From positions 1 through 24,144 of IMG/VR virus record IMGVR_UViG_3300010430_000441: DNA of 24,144 bases. The stretch is one strand, 5' to 3'. Position numbers and translations under genes: made by a program. Positions 3,123-6,442 of this stretch are shown in pieces. This DNA is from a virus. Each line of letters opens with the position of its first letter. Positions within the stretch are counted from its first letter, which is position 1. The notes beneath the pieces are model-generated. The model made no database searches, was not told the DNA's origin, and saw only the letters and a list, made by a program, of their open reading frames with translations.

Positions 3123-3142
3123 CTATTCGTGCGTTTTTAGTT
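3117..3142. terminator. Weak convergent hairpin between early and late operons
   Basis: AACTAA (3117-3122) is complementary to TTAGTT (3137-3142) around a 14-base loop that includes a T-run. The arms contain the stop codons of both convergent genes. The stem is only six A/T-rich pairs, so it is at best a weak bidirectional terminator. The location between convergent operons is the main support. Confidence 0.3.
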
Positions 3143-3903: not shown

Positions 3904-4224
3904 TTATACCCCTGTTTCAGGGGGTGTAGATTGAGCCATTTTAGTTGCCTGCTGTCCCCCGCCTAAAGAAGCCAATAGGGTAACAATCAAAGAACCAAGC
4001 TCTTTGGATTGCAACCCACCAACGGCTACAGCCTCTGTCATACCAATGCGATCCATTGCCGCCATGGTGTTACCCATTGACTTGGTAATAATGCCCTGCA
4101 TGGCTTGCTGGTTAGAAGCAAAGTTCTGTGACGTTACGTTAGCAACTTGGGCAGGAATGGACGCTATTGCCTTAAGCTCTTCATTCGCAATAGCAGAAAC
4201 GATACCATCATCTAATTCAGCCAT
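3904..4224 (-). CDS. Hypothetical protein with weak RebB (R-body) resemblance
   Basis: The 106-residue product starts at ATG 4224, with AGAGG eight bases upstream. It is alanine-, glutamine- and methionine-rich and largely helical. The segment IVSAIANEELKAIASIPAQV lines up without gaps with the start of RebB-type R-body proteins as I remember them (D-A-V-T-Q..V-K-V-L-G-x-x-P-A), and glutamines and alanines follow at similar positions. RebB proteins are usually about 70-110 residues and polymerise into contractile ribbons in bacterial cytoplasm. The match is weak and by memory only. Alternatives are a small virion or scaffold-like protein, or a lysis factor: residues about 74-92 (LGSLIVTLLASLGG) are mildly hydrophobic. 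Its leader is unusually structured. Confidence 0.6.
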   Translation of the reverse strand: MAELDDGIVSAIANEELKAIASIPAQVANVTSQNFASNQQAMQGIITKSMGNTMAAMDRIGMTEAVAVGGLQSKELGSLIVTLLASLGGGQQATKMAQSTPPETGV

Positions 4225-4239
4225 AATAATAACCTCTTA

Positions 4240-4258
4240 ACATCACCCATAATGATGT
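4240..4258 (-). promoter_or_regulatory. Leader hairpin just upstream of the 4224 RBS
   Basis: ACATCA and TGATGT form a perfect six-pair stem with a seven-base loop that reads TTATGGG on the - strand. Its near edge is three bases from the AGAGG ribosome binding site of the gene starting at 4224. The loop is perfectly complementary to CCCATAA inside the neighbouring three-way junction (4286-4292), so a kissing or pseudoknot contact is possible. Confidence 0.5.
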
Positions 4259-4269
4259 CACACACATAA

Positions 4270-4325
4270 GGTCTGACCGGCAAGGTTATGGGCCATTACC
4301 ACCCCGAAGGGCTAAAGGTCAGACC
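4270..4325 (-). ncRNA. Candidate structured RNA: three-way junction with UUCG loop
   Basis: Read on the - strand, GGTCTGACC (4325-4317) pairs perfectly over nine bases with GGTCAGACC (4278-4270). Enclosed are two abutting hairpins. One is GCCC-TTCG-GGGT (4312-4301), capped by the very stable C(UUCG)G tetraloop with a closing G-U pair. The other is GGTAATG-GCC-CATAACC (4300-4284), with one A-A mismatch. The UUCG loop exists only on the - strand, which gives the element a direction, and it lies in the leader of the 3904-4224 gene. There is no T-run, so it is not a simple terminator. It could be a regulatory leader, a processing site or a stand-alone small RNA. Confidence 0.5.
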
Positions 4326-4338
4326 AAACTGTTACGGC

Positions 4339-4358
4339 GTTTTGAAGCGCCTTCAAAC
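4339..4358 (-). other. Hairpin immediately after the 59-aa gene
   Basis: On the - strand GTTTGAAG pairs with CTTCAAAAC (one bulged base) around GCG, starting at the first base after the TAA of the 4359-4538 gene. It lacks a T-run, so it may protect a 3' end or punctuate the operon rather than terminate transcription by itself. Confidence 0.4.
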
Positions 4359-4538
4359 TTAAAATATGCGTTCCAGAAAACGCCCCACGGCATTCAGGAT
4401 CTGCTTGGCAGCGTCAGCCGCGTACTCGGGATTCTCCCGCAGTTCCTGCTCAATAGCATCGGCATTTTCTTCCAGCGCTCTCTCGTAGGCATCCACGGCT
4501 TGACGCAGGGCTTTTTCAATATCATCTATAGCACTCAT
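4359..4538 (-). CDS. Small acidic helical protein, 59 aa
   Basis: ATG at 4538 is preceded by a textbook AAGGAGA site seven bases upstream, stronger than most in this operon. The 59-residue product reads MSAIDDIEKALRQAVDAYER onward, entirely helical and alanine/glutamate-rich, ending AVGRFLERIF. It contains no cysteine, signal or membrane segment, so it is not a conventional holin despite standing next to the endolysin. Similar small helical proteins occur among phage virion or regulatory proteins, but no family is recognised. It stands alone, with 38 bases to the endolysin and 134 to the next gene, and is short enough to be missed by a 60-residue cut-off. Confidence 0.7.
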   Translation of the reverse strand: MSAIDDIEKALRQAVDAYERALEENADAIEQELRENPEYAADAAKQILNAVGRFLERIF

Positions 4539-4576: not shown

Positions 4577-4915
4577 TTAAGCTACATGCTCTCCGAAGCT
4601 AAGATGATTCCCATCCCCAAATCTACCGCCCCAACTGCAAAGCTCATGCATGGTCTCCCAGTGCTCTCCAATCTCGCGCCACGCTTCCGTAGTGGTCTGA
4701 TACTCACCGCTGATAAATAGATTGTAATCGACTGCAATTCGCTGCTTGTGTTTAGACAATGACGAACTGTAACTCTTCTTTTCCCCATACTCCCCGTGAA
4801 CGCGCGGATCACGAAAAGCATCGCCAAAAGATAGCTCATACCCCCTTTCATACACCCACAACACAAGCTGCGCCTGTAGTCGTACAAATAGCCGTTGTTG
4901 CTGTCCGAGCGTCAT
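4577..4915 (-). CDS. M15-family endolysin (L-alanyl-D-glutamate peptidase type)
   Basis: The 112-residue product has the zinc-peptidase signature of phage M15 endolysins. H56 and D63 lie in SLSKHKQRIAVDYN and D101 and H104 in GGRFGDGNHLS. The spacings (seven and three) equal those of H66/D73 and D130/H133 in the phage T5 endopeptidase, where three of these residues bind zinc and the aspartate before the last histidine is catalytic. The enzyme would cut the peptide stems of Gram-negative peptidoglycan at lysis. There is no signal peptide, so export would need a holin. It is somewhat shorter than T5 lysin (137 residues). The start overlaps the stop of the upstream lipoprotein frame as ATGA. Confidence 0.9.
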   Translation of the reverse strand: MTLGQQQRLFVRLQAQLVLWVYERGYELSFGDAFRDPRVHGEYGEKKSYSSSLSKHKQRIAVDYNLFISGEYQTTTEAWREIGEHWETMHELCSWGGRFGDGNHLSFGEHVA

Positions 4916-5106
4916 TTCTCGAATGAGGCGCCTTCCACGCTAATATCCTCGTTTTTCTCTAAATCATGGATGCATTGCATATGCGTCCCATCGGGGAGCT
5001 TCAAACTGCAATTACTTATGATGTGCCTGTCATCAGTCTCGCCTTCACGCAGCAATTCACAGCCGGATAAAAGCATCAGGGCGAGGGCAATGGGTGTTTT
5101 AACGAT
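4912..5106 (-). CDS. Small lipoprotein B, apparent AUC start
   Basis: From codon ATC at 5106 the frame gives a 64-residue lipoprotein: (M)VKTPIALALMLLSGC, a short basic N-terminus, a hydrophobic core and a lipobox LSGC with cysteine 16, then a polar domain with two further cysteines (33 and 45). An AGGAG site stands seven bases before the ATC. No ATG, GTG or TTG is available at this place in the frame. The first ATG (5076 downward) overlaps the upstream stop but lies four codons before the lipobox cysteine and would destroy the signal peptide. It resembles the protein encoded just upstream and overlaps the endolysin by four bases. An outer-membrane spanin-like role beside the endolysin is plausible; a point mutation that has killed the start is the alternative. 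Confidence 0.6.
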   Translation of the reverse strand: MVKTPIALALMLLSGCELLREGETDDRHIISNCSLKLPDGTHMQCIHDLEKNEDISVEGASFEK

Positions 5107-5276
5107 TTCTGTTCTCCTGCGTCGTGTTGTTCCTTGCTGGATGTAGTAATGCAGTCTACTTCTAGCATCTCAGTCTCAACCTTGCACCGCGATACAATGT
5201 CATGATCCCGCCGCTGACTCTGGCGGGCAATGTCGCAGCCGGATAGAAACAATATTAGAAGGATTGAATATTTCAT
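5076..5276 (-). CDS. Small lipoprotein A, 66 aa
   Basis: ATG 5276 is chosen over the in-frame TTG 5282 because it overlaps the stop of the spike gene as ATGA and gives a compact lipoprotein signal, MKYSILLILFLSGC, with cysteine 14 as the lipidation site. The mature part has two cysteines (about residues 31 and 42) in a context similar to lipoprotein B (VSRC...VDC against ISNC...MQC), which marks the two as paralogues. The C-terminal 25 residues are read through the start region of gene B in another frame. It should sit in the outer or inner membrane facing the periplasm. A spanin (Rz1-like) role is possible from position, but it lacks the proline-rich body typical of Rz1. Confidence 0.65.
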   Translation of the reverse strand: MKYSILLILFLSGCDIARQSQRRDHDIVSRCKVETEMLEVDCITTSSKEQHDAGEQKSLKHPLPSP

Positions 5277-6442
5277 GGGCAAATAACATCAGTCTCATGG
5301 AGCGGTGGCCCTGGATTATCCCCGTGGCCGATATGAGTATACTCAAACCCACAGAGATAGTTATCATGTTCGAGCGGGTATTCCCCCGGCCACATTGTAT
5401 GGAATGCTGCCAGTGTGCCATGAAAAGTATTACCATAGACTTCGGCTTGACCAGAACGCACATCTGCGCGAAAGCCTATTTTTGTATTCACGGATACGTT
5501 ATTTCTGAATATGTTACCAGTGGACCCCTCTGCAGAATTGACATACCCGGCATCTGTCCCCCCAACATAGTTGTCCTCGATGATCGAATCCTGACCGCGC
5601 CATGACTGGATACCTGCCGAAAAATTGCCGTTGTTGATTATATTGGATACAACATTACTTTTGACAAGCACGCGTTTGCAGTTGTAGTCATAATCCTCCC
5701 CTAGTCTATCCAGGTTGACCCCATGTCCATCGCCAGACGTGCTGCCGGTCATGGTGTCTGTCACATGATTATTGACAACAGATACATCCTCGCAAGCGTG
5801 CAGGCTGATTGCATTGTTTGGCGTTCGTTGCTCGCCTGATCGGTGTATGCGATTACCGTAAATGAATGCGTTTTTAACACCGGCAATGAGTACCCCTGAC
5901 TGACCAACCCGTTCAATAAGATTATTCCGTACAATGATGTTTTCCATCCACACATTATTGTCGATGTTATCTATAGCGTCCTGTTGCTGGTTCCCGTTAT
6001 ATATCCACATGGCCGCACTGATCGGTACGTCATGAATATATAACCCCTCCAGAATTATATTCTTTACCGGGACTCCGGGTTCCGAATACAACCAGATACC
6101 GGTACTCTTTGAATTGGTAAACTCAATATCTCGGATCGTTATATCTTGTGCGGCAATGCCCCATACACCGTACCAGTCTTTCTGGTCTCCATCGACAAGC
6201 GGCAACTCCCCTTCCCCGTAAGACTGGTATGTGACACCGTTTACCGTTTGTATATAAGACTTCCATGTATCACCACGTTTCAGGTTGACCGTATCACCCG
6301 CCTCTATATTGTTATAGGCGTGCATTAATGTCGCCCACGGCGATGGGCGAGTGCCTGGATTGGTATTATCCCCGCTATTGGCGATGTAATAATCCTGCGC
6401 GAATACAGGCAGAGACAACAGAAAAAGCACCAGGAATCTCAT
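5273..6442 (-). CDS. Exported right-handed beta-helix protein, spike paralogue
   Basis: The 389-residue product opens with a Sec signal peptide, MRFLVLFLLSLPVFA, with cleavage expected before QDYY. The mature part starts with a module shared with the next spike (DYYIANSG, PWATL, a GDTV..KRGDTW turn, then NGVTYQSYGEG and LVDG). It continues as a chain of parallel beta-helix rungs rich in NNxV/I, such as IIVRNNLIERVGQSGVLIAG and VSVVNNHVTDT. Beta-helix folds in phage usually serve as tail spikes binding or cutting surface polysaccharide, but virion spikes do not carry signal peptides. This one should be exported by the infected cell. It overlaps both neighbours as ATGA. A polysaccharide lyase or hydrolase activity is possible; no catalytic set is identifiable by eye. 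Confidence 0.8.
   Translation of the reverse strand: MRFLVLFLLSLPVFAQDYYIANSGDNTNPGTRPSPWATLMHAYNNIEAGDTVNLKRGDTWKSYIQTVNGVTYQSYGEGELPLVDGDQKDWYGVWGIAAQDITIRDIEFTNSKSTGIWLYSEPGVPVKNIILEGLYIHDVPISAAMWIYNGNQQQDAIDNIDNNVWMENIIVRNNLIERVGQSGVLIAGVKNAFIYGNRIHRSGEQRTPNNAISLHACEDVSVVNNHVTDTMTGSTSGDGHGVNLDRLGEDYDYNCKRVLVKSNVVSNIINNGNFSAGIQSWRGQDSIIEDNYVGGTDAGYVNSAEGSTGNIFRNNVSVNTKIGFRADVRSGQAEVYGNTFHGTLAAFHTMWPGEYPLEHDNYLCGFEYTHIGHGDNPGPPLHETDVICP

Follow-up and report, generated by a model that had tools for sequence, protein, structure and literature searches.

To our knowledge, few well-supported structured leaders exist in phage late operons. The purine riboswitch is built on a three-way junction with kissing 7-nt loops, in which both hairpins lie inside P1 around the ligand pocket. 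In the repZ pseudoknot leader, translation is controlled by a long-range pairing located immediately 5' of the ribosome binding site (RBS). In phages T4 and RB69, the gene 32 operator is a pseudoknot of approximately 28 nt, which is located 5' of the Shine-Dalgarno (SD) sequence and is bound by gp32, and this pseudoknot has been reported to be missing in some relatives such as RB49 (PMC535899).

The phage leader described here is a new RNA motif, but tertiary-folded phage mRNA leaders as a kind of device are already known. As in the gene 32 system, the tertiary fold is part of a phage mRNA, lies immediately 5' of the SD, keeps its topology while the sequence diverges, and is absent from some relatives; it differs in that a 7-bp kissing loop is combined with a three-way junction. 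With repZ it shares a long-range pairing that lies directly ahead of the RBS, but repZ is a plasmid replication gene and the switch is operated there by an antisense RNA. The three-way junction and kissing 7-nt loops are shared with the purine riboswitch, but membership in this class was rejected, as hairpin B of the leader lies outside P1 rather than being enclosed by it and no Rfam match was obtained. The sequence-only reading of this DNA had recognised no riboswitch class, which agrees with our search: no Rfam 15 family scored at or above the gathering threshold, with SNORD78 alone giving a match, by chance and to the + strand (E 2.7). No such element was found described in the open-access literature. 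Judged from sequence comparison, the leader is a real, apparently undescribed and probably regulatory RNA element preceding proteins distantly related to bacterial R-body proteins.

The phage locus and its late genes

The window, that is the whole stretch of 24,144 bases analysed here, is a virus record from a podovirus-like phage. It contains PHROGs matches to portal and major head proteins, and its portal protein is approximately 30% identical to those of cultured relatives. The late genes are encoded on the - strand, down to position 3137, where they meet the early genes of the + strand. The leader sits between a 59-aa gene (4359-4538, -) and a 106-aa gene (3904-4224, -), downstream of an M15-type endolysin gene (4577-4915). 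A repeated promoter motif was searched for upstream and none was found. The 59-aa gene is absent from the related contig L001 between endolysin and leader, pointing to gain or loss. Beside the endolysin gene, two small ORFs (4912-5282, -) carry lipoprotein-like signal sequences (LSGC) and possibly encode spanin-type proteins. On the + strand, the end of a 103-aa ORF (1132-1443), which by its listed start overlaps an Erf-like gene, resembles a LuxR-type helix-turn-helix, and the starts of two successive genes are spanned by a 44-nt direct repeat (82%; 1821-1864 and 2035-2078), which may reflect a local duplication.

The 106-aa protein is 100% identical between the window and L001 (3001-3321 in the latter). 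The two genes differ at 48 bases, all of them synonymous; 31 of 58 fourfold sites are changed, giving a Jukes-Cantor distance of 0.94. The endolysins of the same two phages are 65% identical and the neighbouring genes 60-65% overall. The protein is therefore frozen, with zero amino acid changes despite approximately 0.94 substitutions per fourfold site. On its own, it has no match in Pfam or PHROGs and no relatives among solved structures, and its structure model is poor (pLDDT 56). Protein searches gave no homolog in cultured phages and plasmids and no match in gammaproteobacterial genomes. The window protein does, however, rank first of the 410 window ORFs against A4 (E 0.014), a profile of eight related phage proteins (from L018, L048, L049, L050 and L094-L097). 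Four of these eight match RebB (PF11747) weakly, with a best E of 9e-4, and the profile-profile alignment of A4 with PF11747 spans only 24 columns. With the A4 profile, bacterial reb clusters were also recovered from alphaproteobacterial genomes, at E values from 5e-6 to 9e-4. An N-terminal motif similar to NLKVLGDGP is common to related phage proteins and RebB, but the similarity is weak, and any polymer formed by the phage proteins is putative. We consider the label Reb-like fairly secure for the phage family A4 on the basis of these profile matches, and tentative for the window protein, which is tied to RebB solely through the phage family (E 0.014 and E 0.0015). In the eight A4 phages, the RebB-like small proteins are encoded at varying places among the late genes, where an endolysin, tail fibre or head gene comes before them, and L049 carries two tandem paralogs (1604-1870 and 1948-2199). 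In a survey from 2013, phage genomes yielded no Reb homologs (PMC3583457).

Architecture, covariation and constant position of the leader

In the window, the 5' strand of P1, GGUCUGACC (4317-4325, -), forms a perfect nine-pair match with its 3' strand, GGUCAGACC (4270-4278, -). P1 encloses HP1 (GCCC-UUCG-GGGU; 4301-4312, -), of which the UUCG is kept in L001 and which is replaced by other small hairpins elsewhere, and arm A of the junction (4279-4300, -), GGUAA(u)GG-[CCCAUAA]-CCUUGCC, whose stem is replaced and whose 7-nt loop is kept in L001, L018 and L094. Loop A, CCCAUAA (4286-4292, -), is the 5' partner of the kissing pairing and is complementary to the 3' partner, loop B, UUAUGGG (4246-4252, -), which is presented by hairpin B, UGACAUCA-[UUAUGGG]-UGAUGUUA (4238-4260, -). 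Hairpin B abuts the SD, approximately 1-2 nt before AGAGGU (4232-4237, -), and the AUG of the 106-aa gene follows at 4224. A terminator reading of hairpin B was rejected, as no U-run follows the hairpin. All of these helices, which the sequence-only reading had described, are present both by reading of the sequence and with RNAfold, which recovered the three helices of the window leader in the MFE as well as the centroid structure. A further hairpin counted as the first helix of the leader at that stage, UUUGAAG-GCG-CUUCAAA after the stop codon of the 59-aa gene (4341-4357, -), does exist in the window but lies outside the conserved element and is missing in L001. The folding energy of the window leader is unremarkable (z -1.78, with 12 of 200 shuffles equally good), and z was -1.19 for the L001 and L018 leaders. 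With folding energy this modest, conservation had to decide.

Distantly related phages keep the shape with a changed sequence: leaders of this architecture lie in front of homologous small genes in L001, the L018 group, L094 and L049, with a looser match in L050. A search with the 106-aa protein yielded one contig, L001. The L018 group was identified by a pattern consisting of the two loops and the start codon; the L018 protein led to L048, L049 and L050, and an alignment of those to L094-L097. Hence, L001, L094, L049 and L050 were identified via the protein, independently of the RNA sequence. The L001 leader aligns with that of the window, and every difference in P1 preserves pairing, through double-sided changes at two positions and one G-U. 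Arm A and hairpin B have altered stems and identical 7-nt loops. The L018 group (three contigs, one leader), in which the leader also follows an endolysin-like gene, has a nine-pair P1 of unrelated sequence and new stems in arm A and hairpin B. In L094, P1 is UGGCGUAGC/GCUACGUCA and the loop pair is that of the window. In L049, P1 is UAGCAGGCU/GGUCUGCUA, and the loops, each within its own hairpin, covary, both sides being changed at three positions (CCUUGAA/UUCAAGG). L050 fits more poorly, with 7/9 pairs in P1, a 6-bp loop pair (CCAUCC/GGAUGG) and the SD within an extended hairpin B. L095 has only P1 and arm A, and the element was not convincing in the leaders of L048, L096 and L097. It thus went undetected, or in L095 was partial, in four of the nine family leaders (L001 left out), indicating that it is not essential to every family member. 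A final pattern scan without the start-codon requirement returned known examples only, a genome pattern scan for prophage or bacterial copies gave 43 matches, none with both flanking stems, and no convincing element was seen at bacterial reb loci.

It is extremely improbable that phage leaders simply fold somehow and that the complementarity is a coincidence, even if the modest z-scores would fit such a reading. In a sample of about five lineages with few sequences, P1 has 9/9 pairs in five phages, with 2-4 standard pair types at all nine positions across six phages, and on re-pairing of the P1 strands only one of 720 assignments, the true one, gave the observed pair total. The kissing loop is Watson-Crick at 7/7 positions in five phages and at 6/6 in L050. 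This covariation in P1 and the kissing loop argues against chance, as do the shuffles and the background rate, which were obtained with a script that demands P1 together with hairpins A and B whose loops are complementary, and that was written after the first examples had been seen (L018 having been found through its loop sequence). When both strands of the whole 24-kb window were scanned with this script, only the leader scored at least 27. None of 2000 dinucleotide shuffles each reached the observed score for the window, L001, L018 and L094, and nine of 2000 did for L049; about 20 independent chance matches with scores of at least 30 occurred outside the family in 2.49 Mb of strand. Covariation in independent phages, the check named with the sequence-only reading, supports that part of it in which the leader is structured and its loop-loop pairing functional.

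The position of the element is likewise constant. In 6/6 phages, the element ends no more than about 30 nt from the AUG of a gene of this family, and 1-10 nt separate hairpin B from the SD across phages, the SD of L001 being taken as AGGAG by reading, which differs from the choice of the script. Only in L050 does the SD fall within one of the core helices (P1, arm A and hairpin B), which favours a fold acting beside the RBS over one hiding it. P1 starts 2-13 nt past the upstream stop codon in L001, L094, L049 and L050, so that ribosomes ending there could open P1 in some phages; the distance is 33 nt in the window, however, and reaches 123 nt in L018, so that such coupling is not general.

Possible functions of the fold

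We infer a regulatory role for the leader, which most likely would set translation initiation or message stability. With a probability of roughly 0.55, we propose that 4238-4325 (-) is a cis-acting 5'-leader RNA, whose kissing-loop fold gates translation of the adjacent Reb-like gene. In this RNA, P1, HP1 and arm A form the three-way junction and the loop of arm A kisses that of hairpin B over 7 base pairs, resulting in a compact fold whose end is 1-10 nt away from the downstream SD of the late Reb-like gene. The locked fold may then set the ease of 30S loading on the adjacent RBS and, in the simplest version, its forming or melting would gate translation. It could be opened by a trans-acting protein, possibly the product of the gene itself, or alternatively by ribosomes finishing the upstream gene, as 4/6 phages would allow. 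The fold would also separate the RBS from upstream sequence, and beside the RBS it might offer a regulator a landing site or gate, or act as a stabiliser. A small-molecule aptamer seems less likely, as no invariant unpaired nucleotides were noticed outside the kissing loops. More tentatively, one might speculate that this is a phage-specific class of kissing-loop leaders controlling the output of a phage-borne R-body-like protein, perhaps acting as an autogenous operator whose loop lock is opened by the polymerising protein or an upstream ribosome.

Instead of switching, the element could mainly be an mRNA stabiliser or processing landmark, which, once the long late transcript has been cleaved, provides a protected 5' end close to the RBS on its upstream side and thereby raises the output of an abundant small protein. 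This is rather unlikely, but it would suit a late gene whose protein is under extreme constraint, the position of SD and AUG outside the fold in 5/6 phages, and loops without invariant residues resembling a ligand pocket; simple 5' hairpins would be enough for stability, however, and a conserved 7-bp kissing loop exceeds this need. The compact, self-contained fold could also belong to an independent non-coding RNA that is merely located upstream of the gene, a very improbable reading given that it is the Reb-like AUG that follows in 6/6 phages while the other neighbours differ.

The sequence-only reading had favoured another switch, in which loop A alternates between the UUAUGG start and loop B, and the complementarities it listed (CCCAUAA:UUAUGGG, CCAUAA:UUAUGG at the start, AUAACC:GGUUAU) are all present in the window. 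The 6-bp start-codon match is found in the window, L001 and L018, and three lineages with stems that have little in common retain CCCAUAA/UUAUGGG. But the match is confined to those three and fails as a family-wide rule: L094 keeps CCCAUAA/UUAUGGG with the start GAAAAUGG, and L049 keeps the start UUAUGGCU with the loop CCUUGAA, for which reason membership among start-codon-sequestering switches was rejected. Moreover, L095 and L097 have UUAUGG starts without a CCCAUAA loop, and the start duplex reaches -4.9 kcal/mol versus -7.5 kcal/mol for the loop pair. A mutually exclusive start-codon pairing is hence very improbable; the match is best seen as a by-product of the common AUUAUGGCU start context, and the SD-adjacent GGUUAU pairing is private to the window. 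Mimicry of the anticodon loop of initiator tRNA, presumably CUCAUAA, by the similar CCCAUAA was dropped because L049 has CCUUGAA.

Taken together, the covarying intramolecular kissing loop makes this leader testable by simple loop-swap mutants. It accompanies phage proteins that appear related to R-body proteins, a link to phages that had been suspected but was not found in the survey from 2013 (PMC3583457).
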